From a virus: a stretch of DNA of 39,091 nt. How positions within the stretch are numbered: the first letter of the stretch is position 1; each line of letters begins with the position of its first letter. The position numbers were made by a program, and so were the translations under genes. The stretch lies in the IMG/VR virus record IMGVR_UViG_3300042867_000366, positions 1-39,091 of that record. The stretch is one strand, 5' to 3'. The notes beneath the pieces are model-generated. The model searched no databases, was not told the origin of the DNA, and saw only the letters and a list, made by a program, of their open reading frames with translations. Of this stretch, positions 2,381 to 15,876 are shown piece by piece.

Positions 2381-2411
2381 CAAAGATACATCAAACTTCC
2401 ATTAGAACCAA
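2381..2411 (-). promoter_or_regulatory. Possible weak promoter at the end of the large terminase gene
   Basis: The minus strand shows TTG, 20 nt, TATCTTTG, matching TAnnTTTG with acceptable spacing, 5 nt before the 45-aa ORF start. It overlaps the last codons of the terminase gene, so the match may be fortuitous. Confidence 0.3.
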
Positions 2412-4540
2412 TATCCGTGTACTTGGATCATATATCTAACCGTATCTATGCAGTTATGGACTAAAACTCCATTAGCAAAATATTCGTGTTCTTCTTCAAT
2501 CATTAAATCGTATACATTATCAAAATATTTTTCTCCTTGCTCTAAGCGCACGAGCCTTGCAGTTTTGATGGCAGTATTTTGTAATTCCTGTTGTTCTTGA
2601 AGTATATTCTTTACCGCATTGATGACAGTTGTATTTTTTATATTCTGCTTTATCCCAAGCCATTTTGCCAATCTTCCTATGAAAATCAAGTCCTGCTTCT
2701 GTGCCGTGCCATTTGTTTGCAAACTCTCTGGCATAATCCATTCTTGCCCTAAGTTCTTCTTTATCCCTTGATGACATATGTTGAGATAAATGTTTACTCG
2801 CTTCAATACATTCCAAATTGGATATATCATTATTTTGCTGATTACCATCAATATGATGTATGTGATAACCTTTAGGTATTTTGCCATTAAAGAATTGCCA
2901 AACTTCAGTATGCAGTCTTTTACAACCTTTTGAAAAATACTTCTCTCCCTTGTACAAGTAGTATGTTTTTCCATCAAATACTTGGTAAGGTATAGTTCCA
3001 TCCCCTGCTTCAATGACGCAATCTCTACCCATCCTGTTGATGTCTTTATCTTGTGGTTGTGTGTGCATATAACTTCTGTTTTAGTGTTATCCTCAAAGAT
3101 AAGACTATACTTGCATACCTCCTTGCATCCATTATAAAACTTATGCACAACTTGATGCCATCCGCTACTTGTCAGTACTAAGTCACCTTGCACCATACTT
3201 CGTATTGGCATCAAACCATAAGGTGTTGTAATTAGTGTACTACCTACGAAACAATGGTTATGAGCATCAATAGGCTTACCACTTGGCTTACCATCCTTGT
3301 CCACCGCCCATACATACTGCGAGAACTCAGCAATCAAGTTTGGTGAGTCACTCGTAACGTGAATCTTCATACTTAGTAGCTTATCTATACCACCCTTGAT
3401 ACTCTTGTTAGGTGCAGGTCTCATATTCCTAAACCCAAGTGATGCGTTAGGATACCTCTCCCTATCTTCCTCACTCAAGTACTTGGCTATACCAAACCGC
3501 AACTCACGGATGGTATCAGGCTCGGCACAGTCAGCTACGATAAGTGTGTCTTCCAACATACCCAAGTCATTCAACTTCTTACCCAACTCTACCAACGCAA
3601 GTGGCTCGTAGTTCAACTCCTTTAGGTAAACGTGGTCTCCTTTCACCTTCATCCATACAGTTGCCGCAGGACTGGCAGTACCGAAGTCTTGCCCATAGCA
3701 CTCGGCATAGTCCAACTCCGCAAACTCTTCAGGTGTGATGATGTCATAGTTCTTGAATATCTGACCCTTCAACCCTGTTGTAGAGTAACCCTTGATACTC
3801 GTCAAGTAGTGATGTAGGTTATACAAGTGCGACTCAGAGTCTCCATAGGCTTCATACTGCCGAACGGTCTTATCAGGTAGGAACGTGTTATCCTTGTAGT
3901 TACATTGTATCGTTACCAATCCGTGTACATCCTTCGGCACAAGCTTGAAGTACCCACTTCGTTCCGTATCCGTCAACTGAGGTTCATCCTCTTCGGTAAT
4001 CGGTATAGCGTTGAAGTACCTACGCACGATCCAATGGTAGATGTCAGGTGTGTTCATAATGAAGATGATGTACGAACCACGCTTCCTGATACTGTCGCTG
4101 AACGTATTGAACTTATCCTCATCTCTTATATCTTCGCCCTCCTCTATACACGCTATGTCTACGTTCGATACCGACTTCATATTCGCCTTCTTATCTAACG
4201 TACTCGCCCTAAACCCCTTAGTGAACACCGCCATCTCGCCAGTCTTGTTGTTCTTGATACCATTCTCCAACCTTGAGAACTGCTTATCCAACACCGACTG
4301 CTTGTTAGCCGTATCCCATCTAAGTAGTACCTCGTTCAAGATACTCTCCTTGATACCTTCCTTCTCATCACGCAACACTTGACAACGCTTACCCTTGATA
4401 GCTGCGGAATAGGCTATAAACTTCGACACTTCATAAGTCTTACCGCCACCACGACCACCGATACAAACTACTATCTCGGTATCTTCAGCTAACTCATACA
4501 AAGGTGCAAACTTGGGAGTTCTCTTAACTATTACGTCCAT
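2402..4540 (-). CDS. terL: Terminase large subunit, interrupted by an intein
   Basis: 712-aa precursor: N-extein 1-429, intein 430-696, C-extein 697-712; the spliced product would be 445 aa, normal for TerL. The packaging ATPase has Walker A GGRGGGKT (28-35), Walker B DIACIEE (128-134) and the coupling segment NTPD (about 163). The RNase H-like nuclease has acidic motifs in YGQDFG (about 288) and VADCAEPD (about 335). The third nuclease motif, which reads DAHNH then CIDTVRY after removal of the intein, is split by it. Splicing is therefore expected to be needed for an active nuclease. It translocates DNA into the prohead and cuts it. Small terminase lies upstream across a non-coding spacer. 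The start is the first ATG, 5 nt from a TACATTTG element. Confidence 0.93.
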   Translation of the reverse strand: MDVIVKRTPKFAPLYELAEDTEIVVCIGGRGGGKTYEVSKFIAYSAAIKGKRCQVLRDEKEGIKESILNEVLLRWDTANKQSVLDKQFSRLENGIKNNKTGEMAVFTKGFRASTLDKKANMKSVSNVDIACIEEGEDIRDEDKFNTFSDSIRKRGSYIIFIMNTPDIYHWIVRRYFNAIPITEEDEPQLTDTERSGYFKLVPKDVHGLVTIQCNYKDNTFLPDKTVRQYEAYGDSESHLYNLHHYLTSIKGYSTTGLKGQIFKNYDIITPEEFAELDYAECYGQDFGTASPAATVWMKVKGDHVYLKELNYEPLALVELGKKLNDLGMLEDTLIVADCAEPDTIRELRFGIAKYLSEEDRERYPNASLGFRNMRPAPNKSIKGGIDKLLSMKIHVTSDSPNLIAEFSQYVWAVDKDGKPSGKPIDAHNHCFVGSTLITTPYGLMPIRSMVQGDLVLTSSGWHQVVHKFYNGCKEVCKYSLIFEDNTKTEVICTHNHKIKTSTGWVEIASLKQGMELYLTKYLMEKHTTCTRERSIFQKVVKDCILKFGNSLMAKYLKVITYIILMVISKIMIYPIWNVLKRVNIYLNICHQGIKKNLGQEWIMPESLQTNGTAQKQDLIFIGRLAKWLGIKQNIKNTTVINAVKNILQEQQELQNTAIKTARLVRLEQGEKYFDNVYDLMIEEEHEYFANGVLVHNCIDTVRYMIQVHGYWF
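2453..3253 (-). other. Intein in the large terminase (267 aa)
   Basis: Protein-splicing element starting at Cys (codon 3251-3253) and ending HN before Cys+1 (2450-2452). Block A reads CFVGSTLITTPYG. Block B reads CTHNHKIKTSTGW with the expected Thr-x-x-His type residues. Block F reads VYDLMIEEEHEYFANG and block G VLVHN followed by Cys. All splicing residues are present, so the element should be active. The segment between blocks B and F is about 165 codons. In the intein frame it is an Ile/Lys/Asn/Gln-rich sequence with no recognisable endonuclease, because that DNA encodes an HNH protein in another frame. Confidence 0.93.
2520..3068 (-). CDS. HNH homing endonuclease nested out of frame inside the TerL intein
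   Basis: 182 aa, in the -1 frame relative to the intein. The HNH core runs about residues 50-86: a KRLHTEVW helix, the GYHIHHIDGN motif with catalytic histidines around 69-72, then NNDISNLE. A C-terminal zinc ribbon uses a CHQC pair and a later C..NC pair and ends in a basic tail (KARALRARR). Such enzymes nick or cut intein-less alleles and so spread the element. The ATG at 3068 lies inside the block B codons and the stop at 2520 falls at block F, so the gene fills exactly the intein linker. An A-rich stretch precedes the ATG, fitting independent initiation; a -1 frameshift fusion to the intein is an alternative. The first 25 residues may not belong to the domain; Met13 is another possible start. 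Confidence 0.9.
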   Translation of the reverse strand: MHTQPQDKDINRMGRDCVIEAGDGTIPYQVFDGKTYYLYKGEKYFSKGCKRLHTEVWQFFNGKIPKGYHIHHIDGNQQNNDISNLECIEASKHLSQHMSSRDKEELRARMDYAREFANKWHGTEAGLDFHRKIGKMAWDKAEYKKYNCHQCGKEYTSRTTGITKYCHQNCKARALRARRKIF

Positions 4541-9389: not shown

Positions 9390-9899
9390 TTATTTATACT
9401 TATTTAATAGGTTATCATAGAACTTAAAGAACTCTTCCATCGAATGAACAATTACATACACACCCTTTGATGTTATAATGCTTTCTTGATACTTCTTCTG
9501 TGCTTTCGATTGTTTGTCCTTCATCTTGATTTCAATCTTAACCGAAAGACCAACCTCGTGTTCACCTATCATAACTGCGATAGTTGAATGGATATCAGCC
9601 GTTCCTTTTGTTCCTTGACCAGGAGTAAAGGTAACACCTTGTGTACGATTGCCTATCTGTTCACCTGTTAAGCCATCTATAACCTTGTTAACTCTTGCCT
9701 GACCTTGATTACTTACCCTTTCTACTTGATGTCCTTCGTACTTTAGGTAATCTCGTACACAAGCCGTTAGTCCATTAGCCGTAGTATCGGTTCTGTCGTA
9801 ATGGTCAAAGCTATCTTGTTGAGGTGTGATGCTTGGATACTTGGCTCTTGAGTATCGTTGCTTGGCTTGGATGATTCGTTGTTTTTCTGCTCGTGTCAT
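9390..9899 (-). CDS. VRR-NUC-like PDDEXK nuclease
   Basis: 169 aa. The C-terminal half has the VRR-NUC pattern: GTADIHSTI (Asp), then VGLSVKIEIKMK giving the ExK pair, a conserved Gln helix (AQKKYQESIITS) and GVYVIVHSMEEFFKFY. The N-terminal 50 residues are basic and helical. VRR-NUC enzymes act on branched or flapped DNA, and phage versions may resolve replication intermediates. It lies directly past the origin and primase. The annotation follows the pattern match; substrate unknown. Confidence 0.75.
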   Translation of the reverse strand: MTRAEKQRIIQAKQRYSRAKYPSITPQQDSFDHYDRTDTTANGLTACVRDYLKYEGHQVERVSNQGQARVNKVIDGLTGEQIGNRTQGVTFTPGQGTKGTADIHSTIAVMIGEHEVGLSVKIEIKMKDKQSKAQKKYQESIITSKGVYVIVHSMEEFFKFYDNLLNKYK

Positions 9900-9936
9900 T
9901 GGTGTTCAAGTGTTAGTCCAAGTATGGATATGAGTT

Positions 9937-10134
9937 TTATAAGGTTTTCGTTTCGTTGAGACATTGCGTTAAGTGTTGTTGGTATCGTGTATTCACCATT
10001 TCCGCTTCTAGGCGGTTCATCTTGTCGGTCTTGAGTGAGATTAAATCCTTCCGTTGTGACGAGGTCAAATGTTCTCGTGTGACGCAAGATAATCGGTTTG
10101 CTTGTTGGCATAGTTTGAGGATGTTTGAATTCAT
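9937..10134 (-). CDS. Small helical protein next to the origin
   Basis: 65 aa (MNSNILKLCQQANRL...), helical and charged, with an ATG two bases after a perfect DnaA box. A second frame (9896..10111, 71 aa) overlaps it and would end in ATGA coupling to the nuclease start. I prefer this frame because its composition is that of a normal helical protein and the other is Pro/Thr/Arg rich. The two cannot be separated with certainty. Function unknown. Confidence 0.45.
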   Translation of the reverse strand: MNSNILKLCQQANRLSCVTREHLTSSQRKDLISLKTDKMNRLEAEMVNTRYQQHLTQCLNETKTL

Positions 10135-12785: not shown

Positions 12786-13157
12786 TTAGAATGGCAAATT
12801 TGATGAATCTCCCAATGGGTCAGTCGGTTGCACCACTTCCGCTTGTACTGTCTCAATGTGTTGACCACTACCTTGTTTATCTAATTTCCAAATTTCCAAA
12901 GAATTGAAACATTTTTCAATGCCATCAGATCCTGTCCAAAGCCTTCCTTTTACATTTACGGTACAAATAACTCTATCACCACCGTGTAAACCATCTAATA
13001 AGGAAGTTTTATCATTACCTGCTTGAATTTGCAAATACTGAGGGTATTCTCCATCCGTCTTAACGATAAAGTCAATTTTTTTGAACTTTTCACTTACTAC
13101 CTGAATAGGATTTTTTTTGTATAGTGTTCCTGACACTATGTAGCTTGTTTCCGCCAT
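12786..13157 (-). CDS. DUF3127 single-strand DNA-binding-like protein
   Basis: 123 aa. Matches the layout of DUF3127, an OB-fold family of Bacteroidota: GTLYKKNPIQVV.EKFKKIDFIVKTDGEYPQYL..Q, then DKTSLLDGLHGGDRVICTVNVKGRLW, FNSLEIWKL and a flexible tail. The final NLPF resembles the acidic DDLPF tip by which SSBs recruit partners, though less acidic here. It would coat single-stranded DNA during replication and recombination. It lies directly upstream of the primase. Confidence 0.8.
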   Translation of the reverse strand: MAETSYIVSGTLYKKNPIQVVSEKFKKIDFIVKTDGEYPQYLQIQAGNDKTSLLDGLHGGDRVICTVNVKGRLWTGSDGIEKCFNSLEIWKLDKQGSGQHIETVQAEVVQPTDPLGDSSNLPF

Positions 13158-13169
13158 TTTTTTGTTGTT

Positions 13170-13712
13170 TTAAATGTTAATATAAGTCTTTCTATTTTTT
13201 ATATTTGAAATTGCAGTTATACTCATTGAATATCTTTCTGCAATGATACGCATTGGTTTCCCATTTTTCATTTCTTCTATGATTCCAGCAATATGTGAAT
13301 TTGGTATTTTTGACATATGGTGATTTTCACCATAATTAGGATGAGTTAAATTACTTTTTATTGCGTGTAATTGATTTTCTTGATTTGTACACCATTCTAA
13401 ATTTTCCAATCTATTATCATCCTTAATGCCATTAATATGATTAATTTGAGGCTTATTAAATTGATTATTTAAAAAAGCTATTGCCATAACTCTATGAACA
13501 CTAGTATTAAATTTAATACAATTTTTAGAAAGTGATACTTGAATATATCCCTTTTTACTTTTTGAATATTTTATATTACGACCTTTTTGTAATCTTTTTT
13601 TTCCATCTTTATGATAAACTATATGGTCAATACTTTTAATAACTCCATATTGATTAACCATATAAATGCCTTTATAATTAATAACGTCTTTCCATATTAT
13701 TTCTGTACTCAT
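13170..13712 (-). CDS. Free-standing HNH homing endonuclease (NUMOD4-HNH-HTH)
   Basis: 180 aa. NUMOD4-like start (IIWKDVINYKGIYMVNQYGVIKSI), then the HNH_3 core (SVHRVMAIAFL... PQINHINGIKDDNRLENLEW) with the NHINGxxxDNR residues, and a C-terminal HTH-like repeat (MRIIAERYSMSITAISNIKNRKTY) that gives sequence specificity. It sits between the DUF3127 gene (12 nt away) and the cassette-like region and is more AT rich than its neighbours, signs of an inserted selfish gene. Expected to cut related phages lacking it. Confidence 0.9.
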   Translation of the reverse strand: MSTEIIWKDVINYKGIYMVNQYGVIKSIDHIVYHKDGKKRLQKGRNIKYSKSKKGYIQVSLSKNCIKFNTSVHRVMAIAFLNNQFNKPQINHINGIKDDNRLENLEWCTNQENQLHAIKSNLTHPNYGENHHMSKIPNSHIAGIIEEMKNGKPMRIIAERYSMSITAISNIKNRKTYINI

Positions 13713-13770
13713 TGTATATGTGTTGCTGAATCACAGCTTGTTTATGTGTTATGTGTTTGTTTTGCGATAT

Positions 13771-13784
13771 GTTAGGAGAAATGC
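13771..13784. repeat. Cassette-end sequence, copy a
   Basis: GTTAGGAGAAATGC on the plus strand; the minus strand reads GCATTTCTCCTAAC. It is nearly the complement (12 of 14) of the sequence GTTAGCAGAAGTGC (minus strand, 14521 to 14508) that starts the same two-gene block. The 14 bp are followed by GCGAC, as at copy c (15501). Confidence 0.6.
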
Positions 13785-13795
13785 CAAGCGACACC

Positions 13796-13999
13796 CTAAA
13801 CCTTTGGCAACTTTTTAAGGAAATCAATTTCTTCTTTAATATCCATCATAGAATTATATTCTAATTCGACTTTTAAAGAGTTGATGATTTTCCCTGCTGT
13901 GTTGGCTAATTCCTTGCCAACATTCAAACCCATTTTACCAGCTTTCATTTTAGTGTAATTATCACTAAGGCTTGTTCTTAATTCTGTGATGTTTTGCAT
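13796..13999 (-). CDS. Hypothetical protein (67 aa)
   Basis: Helical, basic N-terminal half (TELRTSLSDNYTKMKAGKMGLNVGKELANTAGKIINSLKVELEYN) with a short acidic helix at the end. Small proteins of this appearance accompany phage recombination genes, but no function is known. It overlaps the upstream zinc-ribbon gene by 22 nt and shares its cassette-like block. The stop lies 11 nt from the CCTAAC cassette end, with a small TGCCAA/TTGGCA hairpin over the stop codon. Confidence 0.6.
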   Translation of the reverse strand: MQNITELRTSLSDNYTKMKAGKMGLNVGKELANTAGKIINSLKVELEYNSMMDIKEEIDFLKKLPKV

Positions 14000-14583
14000 A
14001 ATCTTTGTGTTTTAATTATTAATCTTTGTGTTTCTATTAATTCAGGATATTGTCTTATAAATTCCGCTTTTTTACCTATTCTTTTTGATAGAGTATAAAT
14101 AACGTAGCAGTCTTTTAATTCTTCACGCATCTTTTTATCTGTTGCGTTTTGCCATTTTCTTACTTTGTCTTTTGGTTGTGGATTGTCTTTATTATATTGA
14201 AGTCTATGTTCTTTATTTTTTATGTCCCAATCTTTTTTCCATTGTTTTACTTTATCTGCATTTTCTTTTTTGTAACATTTTTTATATTCAGTAACATATT
14301 CTTTATTTTTTTCTTCCCATTCCTTTTTTTTAATAGTGCTATAACCTTCATTTTTTTCATTCCATTTTTTACAAACAGAATATCTACATTTTCTGCATTG
14401 GCTGTGATACCTTTGTTTTTTTGTTCCGTCTTTTCTTTTATGTCCAAAAACAATAGGGAAATCATTTATGCTTTTTTCAATATTACATTTTGAACAACAC
14501 TTGAAAGGCACTTCTGCTAACATCGGTTTTGCAAAAGCAAGGGCTTCGGTGGTGGTATCAACATTTGTATTTCTATCAATCAT
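13978..14583 (-). CDS. Zinc-ribbon protein with highly basic helical region
   Basis: 201 aa from the first ATG. Residues about 29-66 hold CSKC...CRKC (KCCSKCNIEKSINDF then HSQCRKCRYSVC), the zinc ribbon seen at the N terminus of phage HNH-type nucleases; no HNH motif follows. Instead there are about 90 residues rich in Lys, Asn, Glu and Trp, probably a long DNA-binding helix, and a C-terminal helix. The first 20 codons lie inside a palindromic element whose homologue at 15.8 kb has in-frame stops, so the real start may be Met21 (14523), where ATGTTAGC overlaps the cassette end. AT content is high. Confidence 0.65.
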   Translation of the reverse strand: MIDRNTNVDTTTEALAFAKPMLAEVPFKCCSKCNIEKSINDFPIVFGHKRKDGTKKQRYHSQCRKCRYSVCKKWNEKNEGYSTIKKKEWEEKNKEYVTEYKKCYKKENADKVKQWKKDWDIKNKEHRLQYNKDNPQPKDKVRKWQNATDKKMREELKDCYVIYTLSKRIGKKAEFIRQYPELIETQRLIIKTQRLCKTSQN

Positions 14584-14650
14584 TTGTGCTAATTTTAAAG
14601 TTTAGTGTTTCTAATCCCTTGCATTCGCAAGTCTGCAAACCGTTATGCGC
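14508..14650. repeat. attC-like palindromic element S1
   Basis: An imperfect inverted repeat. The left arm reads CTAAC, then CGGTTTTGCA and GCAAGGG; the right arm reads CCCTTGC, TGCAAACCG, TTATGC. The pairing is TAAC/GTTA, CGGTT(T)TGCA/TGCAAACCG with one bulged base, and GCAAGGG/CCCTTGC. TAAC to GTTA spans 128 nt. The right arm has a local hairpin (CTTGC/GCAAG). About two thirds of positions look conserved with S2 (15738..15876), with compensating changes in the stem, so the structure appears selected. Confidence 0.6.
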
Positions 14651-15008
14651 ACCGCACTATCTGAAACCTACTAATGATACAACCATCCCCACTATACCTC
14701 TTACGAGGCTCATACAACGATGTTTTCAAGTTTGGTGCATTATGTCTTAGCAAGGTAACAAATCTCTCGTAAAGAGCATCTTGTGTATCTCTCATATTAT
14801 TTACAACTTTAATCGAATTAATGATGGTTGTGTGGTCACGATAGGAAAGGAATCTGCCTATCTCGGAAAGGTTATAACCATTCTCGTAAGCTATGAAACA
14901 AAACAAATGTCTTGCCGTTGCAATGTCAAAAGTGCCTCGTCCACTATCTTGAATCTTTTTGATGGGGATGTTAAGTCCTGTTGCAATGTCTATAAGTATT
15001 CTATCCAT
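14643..15008 (-). CDS. DnaA domain IV-like origin-binding protein
   Basis: 121 aa, no ATPase part. Residues about 24-68 match the C-terminal DNA-binding domain of DnaA: FDIATARHLFCFIAYENGYNLSEIGRFL then YRDHTTIINSIKVV, with the RDHTT signature that contacts the DnaA box. It may recognise the perfect DnaA box or the iterons at 10.1-10.4 kb, or block host DnaA. It overlaps the upstream HTH gene by 8 nt. A stand-alone domain IV protein in a phage is uncommon but known types exist. Confidence 0.8.
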   Translation of the reverse strand: MDRILIDIATGLNIPIKKIQDSGRGTFDIATARHLFCFIAYENGYNLSEIGRFLSYRDHTTIINSIKVVNNMRDTQDALYERFVTLLRHNAPNLKTSLYEPRKRYSGDGCIISRFQIVRCA

Positions 15009-15423
15009 TGTTCGAAGTTTTTAATCCGTAATCAGATAACGATGGATGTACCCATTGAAAGTCAATCATATCAGGTGCAAGTGGTGTGTTATCAATAAGC
15101 AATGCTTTCTCTTTCTTTGCTTTAATCTTTGCACCGAATCCTGACTTCACTTTGATCCCACGATATCCAATGTAGTGCCTTATTTGGTGTTCAGTTATCT
15201 TGTAATAATCTGCCCATTCAAGTGCGGTTTTTTCCATTGCGTGTTCCATTATGTATTCCAAAACTATCGGTGTTTTTCGATACCCTGAATCTTTCCCTTT
15301 AAGTCCATTTCTGTAAAAGAACTGGTGCATTGTTCGATACGTTACGTTTGCAAGTTTCGCCCATTCCTTGTAGGTGTACTTGGTTGGTGTTGCTTTGATT
15401 TGTTGTACTATTTCTATGTCCAT
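15001..15423 (-). CDS. Tandem helix-turn-helix protein
   Basis: 140 aa from ATG 15423, preferred because the upstream region to 15477 belongs to a hairpin element and an A-rich leader (AAAACAAAACAAA) precedes this ATG. Two similar HTH units are visible: YKEWAKLANVTYRTMHQFFYRNGLK (about 18-42) and ALEWADYYKITEHQIRHYIGYRGIK (about 64-88), each with the EWA..(T/Y)...Q.....G(L/I)K pattern. A basic linker follows (KIKAKKEKA). It probably binds DNA, perhaps with the DnaA-like partner encoded next to it. Function unknown. Confidence 0.65.
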   Translation of the reverse strand: MDIEIVQQIKATPTKYTYKEWAKLANVTYRTMHQFFYRNGLKGKDSGYRKTPIVLEYIMEHAMEKTALEWADYYKITEHQIRHYIGYRGIKVKSGFGAKIKAKKEKALLIDNTPLAPDMIDFQWVHPSLSDYGLKTSNNG

Positions 15424-15454
15424 TTTGTTTTGTTTTGATGTGTTATTTAATATG

Positions 15455-15514
15455 TGATAACTTGCGCTACAAAGCAATGAGGCACTGCTTGTAGCTGACA
15501 GTTAGGTGCAATGC
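15455..15514. repeat. attC-like hairpin element S3 (with cassette end c)
   Basis: Minus strand: GCATTGCACCTAAC, TGTCA, stem GCTACAA-GCA, 9-nt loop, TGC-T-TTGTAGC, GCAA, GTTATCAC. A 10-bp stem with one extrahelical base is framed by CCTAAC and GTTA core-like ends over about 50 nt, close to the size and layout of short integron attC sites. The gene upstream stops (TAG) directly at the CATTGCACCTAAC end. Confidence 0.6.
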
Positions 15515-15717
15515 TATGCGACCTCCGATAAAAGCTGGTTTATTACTTCATCAACTTGCTTCCCGTTACCTAAATTATCTTCCAACATTGACTTAAAGAA
15601 CTCTTTATAAACTTCATCAGTCAATATTGTTTCAGTTGTTACTTCGGGATAACCAAACTCTTTCAAGTTCTTTACACCAGCTTTTAATAAATGTTCTCTA
15701 ATTTGTTCGTTTGTCAT
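15514..15717 (-). CDS. Hypothetical protein in a cassette-like unit (67 aa)
   Basis: 67 aa from ATG 15717 (MTNEQIREHLLKAGVKNLKEFGYPEVT...). The 12 further codons of the longer frame start only at TTG and lie in the flanking repeat. Mostly helical and acidic; the YPEVTTETILTDEVYKEFFKSMLEDN segment recurs in small phage proteins of unknown function. It is flanked by inverted GTTAGGTGCA(A/G)TGC sequences at 15501..15514 and 15738..15751, 13 of 14 bases complementary, like a single-gene cassette. Confidence 0.65.
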   Translation of the reverse strand: MTNEQIREHLLKAGVKNLKEFGYPEVTTETILTDEVYKEFFKSMLEDNLGNGKQVDEVINQLLSEVA

Positions 15718-15737
15718 TTTATTTGAATTTGTGAGAA

Positions 15738-15876
15738 GCACTGCACCTAACAAGGTATTGCCAAAAGCAGGGCATTCTCGGTTAATTAATCATTTGTACT
15801 TCTATTGGGCATTTGTACAAGGTTGAAACATTTATCTTTCAAATCCCTGCCTTCGGCAATACCCAAACCGTTACCA
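15738..15876. repeat. attC-like palindromic element S2 (with cassette end d)
   Basis: Left arm GCACTGCACCTAAC, GGTATTGCC, GCAGGG; right arm CCCTGC, GGCAATACC, CAAACC, GTTACC. The GGTATTGCC/GGCAATACC stem is perfect (9 bp) and GCAGGG/CCCTGC adds 6. TAAC to GTTA spans 126 nt. The right arm folds locally as TGCC-TTC-GGCA. The loop holds two GTACAAATG start-codon-like words about 20 nt apart on the minus strand. Homologous to S1. Confidence 0.6.

Follow-up and report, generated by a model that had tools for sequence, protein, structure and literature searches.

Evidence for an integrase-free array of integron-type cassettes with inverted genes in a population of related phages

We analyzed the whole of IMG/VR virus record IMGVR_UViG_3300042867_000366 (39,091 nucleotides [nt], here called the window), with a focus on a region at 13.7-15.9 kb in which an annotation made earlier from the letters alone (the original prediction) had described cassette-like blocks bounded by complementary ends and palindromes. 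This region contains two mobile units, cassette 1 and cassette 2. Each consists of a gene and the palindrome on the 5' side of that gene, and each is bounded on the + strand by cuts between the G and the first T of GTT (G/TT). The two palindromes, S1 and S2, have the anatomy of attC, the recombination site of integron cassettes, and the genes are antisense to them. In related phages these exact units give way to empty sites or to other cassettes, and cassettes are common to different phages. We consider it likely that the region is an integrase-less phage array of the integron type, in which inverted genes follow attC sites that would serve as leaders and a recombinase would act in trans. Among these naturally occurring phages, integron-type cassette exchange is visible at base resolution, empty sites included, and with no integrase.

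A search with the neighboring exonuclease yielded 25 related loci, whose alignments to the window break at identical bases and whose flanks are 87-97% alike. Using a motif search over 26 loci (the window included), we located at least one of two insertion sites in 14. L024, L033, and site A of L023, which the motif missed, were examined by eye; L003 and L009, which are the contigs of L020 and L018 in the other orientation, were left out of part of the locus analyses. L008 and L018 match the window at 100% identity wherever they cover it and are therefore not independent. Site A, where cassette 1 resides, was read in 13 loci: it was empty in three (L021, L022, and L031), and other cassettes occupied the cassette 1 junctions in seven further loci. 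Site B, where cassette 2 resides, was read in 11 loci, two of them empty (L026 and L028) and one with only a 37-nt mini-element. The first two bases of an insert are TT, preceded by a G, and its last base is a G, followed by T(T); in a few loci (L019, L025, L026, and L029), the sequence at the right junction is TAA or TCA. Both window cassettes are cut at G/TT on the + strand, and for both the empty and filled sites display exact excision or insertion at this point. The R' boxes of the filled sites read GTTACCA and GTTATGC, so that, strictly, GTT alone is constant. Exchange of whole blocks, which the original prediction had offered as a check, is evident from the empty sites and the other cassettes at the predicted junctions, and the perfect synteny without the elements that it had named as evidence to the contrary did not occur. 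The cassettes have been exchanged within the time scale of this phage population. Site B also hosts a gene-less, G/TT-flanked mini-element (37 nt in L019, L022, L023, and L029; 32 nt in L021), which stands alone in L023 and is followed by a cassette in L019, L021, L022, and L029.

We tried a third palindrome, S3, as the closing end of cassette 1 and rejected it, since empty phages keep S3 and lose S1. S3 is a recipient site and lies outside any cassette. L024 bears inserts despite missing the S3 hairpin, and L023 and L033 are also without S3. On the minus strand, the original prediction had joined each gene to the palindrome following it. This block was not borne out, and its orientation had been misread, as the strand that carries S1 and S2 as proper attC sites has the genes in antisense. 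Its four 14-mers do stand at their reported places, with start-end complementarity of 13/14 and 12/14, and the imperfect palindromes S1 and S2 (about 127 nt) and S3 (about 50 nt, with one extrahelical A) were confirmed as hairpins. We extended the complementarity analysis to 17 cassette sequences from both sites of the window's phage group, three of which are versions of one cassette and two of another. The start and end of the same cassette matched at 11/14 or better in 13 of the 17, compared to 42 of 3,400 shuffled bodies and 19 of 272 cross-pairs (the start of one cassette with the end of another), the latter partly among homologous cassettes; the complementarity therefore exceeds what chance would give. 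In addition to the 13, L028_A2, which the script missed with its R'' box less than 80 nt from the start, scored 12/14 by eye. L025_A2 and L027_A2 reached 10/14, and L029_B2 failed with 7/14.

The definition of attC includes an imperfect hairpin whose bottom strand is the more stable (PMC5371416, accessible text). A pattern derived from S2 retrieved 28 stretches in bacterial genomes, mostly of Bacteroidota, and from 23 hairpins of these bacterial stretches, with no phage sequence, we built a covariance model named R1. In the window, R1 matched S1 with 104.5 bits (E, 7e-21) and S2 with 98.5 bits (E, 1e-19), both on the + strand, while the next best match scored 13.5 bits and the reverse strand gave 12.7 bits at S1 and 9 bits at S2. 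S1 lacks the search pattern that seeded R1. S3 was not recognized at its true span. A covariance-model check of the kind suggested by the original prediction, made with R1 in place of the IntegronFinder model, was hence positive, and its view of the palindromes as attC sites is supported for S1 and S2; S3 is an attC-like hairpin. The bottom strand was the more stable one at S1 and S2, and the same held for 44 of 46 phage sites and for 36/52 and 55/65 bacterial sites; for S1, the folding energies were -20.4 (bottom) and -16.3 (top) kcal/mol. R1 detected 2-92 sites per genome in 22 of 22 genomes, all chosen for holding S2-pattern stretches. When 100 genomes were sampled from a single bacterial family, the one to which the Chryseobacterium record G010 belongs, 70 of them had R1 sites. 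This contrasts with the one complete integron, that of Salinibacter ruber, listed for Bacteroidetes proper in the accessible text of a survey (PMC9024848). Judging from its attC family, the window phage probably has a host in the Bacteroidota.

Hairpin energies were less informative. A simple scan for AAC...GTT hairpins gave 27 for the window and 58 for six shuffled versions of it, so that energy alone is not diagnostic, and the covariance model was used instead. One hairpin that looked attC-like at first (9633-9768) is located within an open reading frame (ORF) and has no R1 match. In the attC loops of alignment A1, TTTGT and AGTGCT motifs recur and may represent a promoter.

The gene of each window cassette runs antisense to its attC, against the sense direction that is usual, if not obligatory, for cassette genes. 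To score orientation, we recorded ORFs of at least 50 amino acids (aa) that ended (sense) or started (antisense) near the R'' box and then clustered the sequences. Among 57 phage clusters, 54 were antisense, none was sense, and three were unclear. Conversely, 78 of 102 bacterial clusters were sense, four were antisense (50-98 aa), and 20 were unclear. This rule, antisense in phages and sense in bacteria, separates the phage cassette pool from that of the hosts. Some of the phage loci in this count had been fetched via antisense cassette genes; among loci fetched by the attC pattern alone, 24 of 25 attCs (distinct sequences, unclustered) were antisense and none was sense. L062, a contig from a metagenome-assembled genome that is possibly viral, was counted separately, with five of five antisense. 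Within the window's group, the longest ORF was antisense in 16 of 17 cassette sequences, the exception being L021 (sense ORF of 171 aa versus antisense ORF of 159 aa). These numbers supersede a first count that admitted resident genes and whose list omitted weak-end R1 matches and reverse-strand duplicates (phage, 40/46 antisense, 4 sense, 2 with no ORF; bacterial, 97/117 sense, 13 antisense, 7 with no ORF); we redid it with the start or stop near R'' and with clustering.

Of the 54 antisense phage clusters, 28 (cassette 2 of the window is an example) have a longest antisense ORF that starts within the attC, which in that case would encode the N terminus. The frame of the cassette 2 gene crosses the S2 arm and the R'' box (MIDRNTNVDTTTEALAFAKP followed by MLAEV...). 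The leader MIDRNTNV, exactly or nearly, was present in 12 distinct sequences (one copy was kept of sequences identical over 150 nt), 10 of which continue into ORFs of at least 85 aa; in L054 the leader runs off the contig. The window and L014 share the same gene behind this leader, and most other bodies are unrelated. For instance, the MIDRNTNV leader of L045 precedes a C-5 methylase, and the near-identical leader of L046 precedes an N6/N4 methylase. In L128, the cassette 2 body is joined to a different attC; the ATG in the loop of that attC starts MDESLIEKQNGNFANT, which continues in frame into the body. Another class reads the R'' box as GTT and has no start codon there (two in L049; L039, L029, L032, and others). 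A literature search, with subscription papers largely outside it, returned no published account of reversed cassette genes or of a start codon in attC; a cassette composed of a gene and an attC at its 5' end, with the gene antisense to the attC, was accordingly not found in print.

Each cassette is a unit of 0.2-1.2 kb cut at G/TT; according to our model, the folded bottom strand of its attC would be the substrate. A recombinase from the host or from another element in the cell would insert and remove whole cassettes at two points of the replication block, the attC-like S3 and a bare G/TT site. Since the gene is antisense, the attC lies 5' of it, and about half of the phage cassettes have the first ATG in the attC loop; in these, the arm and the R'' box would be translated. 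Such a leader would let the cassette enter the phage operon with a translation start of its own. If true, one sequence would serve, unusually, both as a recombination hairpin and as the translated start of the mobile gene.

The cargo hints at a benefit to the phage. We scanned 10 cassette proteins, picked from the longer ORFs and several of them for looking like methylases, against Pfam: six had N6_N4_Mtase, and single proteins had a C-5 methylase, a general methyltransferase domain, and GIY-YIG (just under the cutoff); the remaining one had no match. The 201-aa protein of cassette 2 had no match in the domain and family scans of the window proteins. This cargo of DNA methyltransferases and small proteins suggests an exchange of counter-restriction genes, and that phages too may use cassettes to trade counter-defense functions.

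The same cassettes were found in different phages. Locus L014 (9.8 kb of a 30.5-kb contig with genes for a RecE-like exonuclease, an endonuclease-VII-like protein, a homing endonuclease, and a terminase) has only 13771-14645 in common with the window (92%), attC cross-matches aside. For cassette 1, 13 viral loci encode relatives of its protein. The DNA match is bounded by 15501 and 15752 in L132 and L136 and by 15501 and 15749 in L134; it runs slightly past the ends in L131 and L133 and slightly inside them in L135. L137, L138, L139, and L140 match the gene in part only, and L141 has no DNA-level match. Directly upstream of the cassette 1-type gene, we found R1 attC matches in L131, L132, and L133 and, in L136, a hairpin that R1 does not match. 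All four hairpins differ from S1, suggesting that bodies and attCs have been re-paired or that the arms have diverged. Same bodies with different attCs would also fit a rival process, in which blocks are swapped during mixed infections by ordinary homologous recombination or by phage enzymes, wherever hairpins or flanks are alike, with no integron-type recombinase at work in the infected cells. The RecE-like and other exonuclease genes of the window phage and the 87-97% similarity of the flanks also speak for it. We nonetheless regard it as unlikely, because the junctions fall at G/TT around unrelated inserts, L014 shares cassette 2 with no detectable DNA similarity outside it, and an empty site B may have no hairpin at all.

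As the original prediction had stated, an integron integrase is absent: no TIGR02249 match was obtained in the window (record G000), and none above the cutoff in 21 phage records (some of them fragments). Two attCs lie close together (S1-S2 spacing, 1.1 kb) with no integron integrase, which makes the region a cluster of attC sites lacking integron integrases (CALIN); with no intI match in the window, it is not a complete integron. In 5 of 14 Bacteroidota loci (L097, L099, L100, L101, and L112), IntI-like recombinases are encoded within about 2 kb upstream of a same-strand attC. The five include one array picked knowingly, as the G003 recombinase was chosen for its nearby attCs. These proteins are candidates for the mobilizing enzyme. 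More generally, L097-L107 and L112, from Bacteroidota genomes, hold large arrays of this attC family, and R1 counted as many as 92 sites in a single genome; some arrays begin a short way downstream of IntI-like recombinases that lack the IntI-specific stretch.

Alternatively, the enzyme might be a phage or satellite recombinase other than an integron integrase, missing from the contigs or unrecognized. The separate orientation class of the phage cassettes and the weaker tyrosine-recombinase matches in 2 of the 21 records (G036 and G042) speak for this; the other 19 and the window have no such match, and the attC family is the same as in the host arrays. We therefore give it little chance. An old static array, captured long ago and now only decaying, would agree with the phages having no integrase. 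It is very unlikely in view of the varied cassettes and empty sites at identical points between such similar flanks, the intact boxes, the complementarity, and the opposite gene orientation of most host cassettes. Hairpins, insertion beside a short motif, and the lack of target duplication also liken these elements to the ends of IS200/IS605 or repetitive extragenic palindrome-associated single-strand transposition systems, the least probable origin of all given the start-end complementarity around GTTRRRY/RYYYAAC, the bottom-strand bias, the arrays adjoining integrase-like tyrosine recombinases, and the failure of any such transposase to surface in general scans of the window proteins.

The integrase-less integron-type array has partial precedents. 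CALINs have already been reported in virulent phages (Qi et al. 2023, PMC9892861). The accessible text of that paper describes integrase-free attC clusters and methyltransferase cargo, as here, also in the Bacteroidota phage P12002L, and recombination of phage attCs, including P12002L attC2, with IntI1 in E. coli. That text does not describe a population of relatives in which sites are empty or exchanged, nor does it state that genes are inverted as a rule or that start codons lie in attC. By our analysis, the P12002L methyltransferase genes lie on the strand opposite to the R1 matches, as in the window cassettes. The sedentary chromosomal arrays of Bacteroidota share with the phage cassettes the attC family defined by R1 and the G/TTRRRY ends; they differ in having mostly sense genes (78/102, with 4 antisense) and, in some cases, a recombinase nearby. 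Site B of the empty phages, a bare G/TT without a hairpin, may resemble attG, a site of cassette insertion outside integrons (term, PMC12901181).

Several points weigh against the integron-type reading. Recombination itself was not observed, and simple excision and insertion of cassettes do not predict the same bodies with different attCs. On three class 1 integron stretches, R1 gave one match, a true attC, with 8.7 bits (E, 5.3); R1 does not recognize class 1 attCs, and kinship to the classical site thus rests on anatomy and junctions. The P12002L sites were also weak by R1 (22.1 and 20.8 bits; E, 0.002 and 0.004). All five candidate recombinases (P0001-P0005) scored 177-224 bits, below the TIGR02249 cutoff of 265, in a search that is itself unspecific, with sub-cutoff matches in all 14 control genomes. 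Their alignments to the model are split in two by a gap at about positions 180-237, and the candidates lack the IntI-specific stretch, which we take to be a mark of the IntI family; in the comparison of P0001 with IntI4 (2a3v), residues 186-245 were unmatched. They do share with IntI4 a similar tail, which is SPLD- or SPFD-like in the candidates and SPLS in IntI4. Regarding the leaders, that of L122 (MIDRNTNV) stops after 38 aa, and it is possible that this class starts at the R'' box (ATG, GTG, or TTG before TTR). Finally, phages of other hosts (TJE1 and PH101) have a typical array structure, according to the accessible part of PMC9892861.

Even so, the integron-type reading of the region was largely right and its anatomy had to be corrected: the integrase-free array is supported by the R1 matches, by the presence or absence of whole blocks in relatives, and by a cassette shared with an unrelated phage contig. 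More tentatively, and with the odds somewhat against it, Bacteroidota phages might maintain a cassette pool of their own, inverted relative to that of their hosts, in which the attC would be recombination site, leader, start, and N terminus in one, a cassette arriving in a phage operon would be translated immediately, and host IntI-like enzymes without the IntI-specific domain would act in trans. The coordinates of the features are given in Table 1.

Table 1. Cassettes, palindromes, genes, and recipient sites in the window
Feature	Position	Strand	Details
Cassette 1, 369 nt	15502..15870	+	TTAGGTGC to G of GTTACCA; junctions 15501/15502 and 15870/15871
S1, attC of cassette 1	15745..15876	+	R'' ACCTAAC 15745-15751; R' GTTACCA 15870-15876
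Cassette 1 gene, 67 aa	15514..15717	-	antisense to S1; own ATG within cassette body
Cassette 2, 871 nt	13772..14642	+	TTAGGAG to G of GTTATGC; junctions 13771/13772 and 14642/14643
S2, attC of cassette 2	14515..14648	+	R'' TGCTAAC 14515-14521; R' GTTATGC 14642-14648
Cassette 2 gene, 201 aa	13978..14583	-	first ATG (14583) in S2 loop
Cassette 2 second ORF, 67 aa	13796..13999	-	ORF call
S3, compact attC-like hairpin receiving cassette 1	15455..15507	+	TGATAAC...G/TT; retained cassette-free in L021, L022, L031
Site B recipient	13766..13774	+	G/TT point without model-recognized hairpin; empty in L026, L028 as TTATG/TTATGCGC

Portal, terminase, major head, and tape-measure genes were found in the window. 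The 13.7-15.9 kb region falls inside a replication block on the minus strand, flanked by genes for an exonuclease (phrog_5715, RecE-like) and a single-strand binding protein. Rfam had no match in the window, and cassette 1 had no DNA match among GenBank phages. The wider region matched 88 GenBank phage records, and the 20 listed all matched over the HNH gene only. This HNH/NUMOD4 homing endonuclease gene (13170-13712) lies between site B and the single-strand binding protein gene. In most relatives that cover its place, the alignment leaves off at 13700 and resumes at 12874, and a different, shorter sequence lies between. In L034, an insert of about 0.55 kb (9475-10034) breaks the alignment to the exonuclease region and includes a stretch resembling the window HNH gene. 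Cassette 2 adjoins the gene for a 121-aa protein (14643-15008) with only a DnaA C-terminal helix-turn-helix, whose stop codon falls on the G/TTA junction. Elsewhere in the window, the ORF of the terminase large subunit (712 aa, 2402-4540) has intein-like Intein_splicing and Hint_2 matches after the terminase domain, both just below the cutoff.

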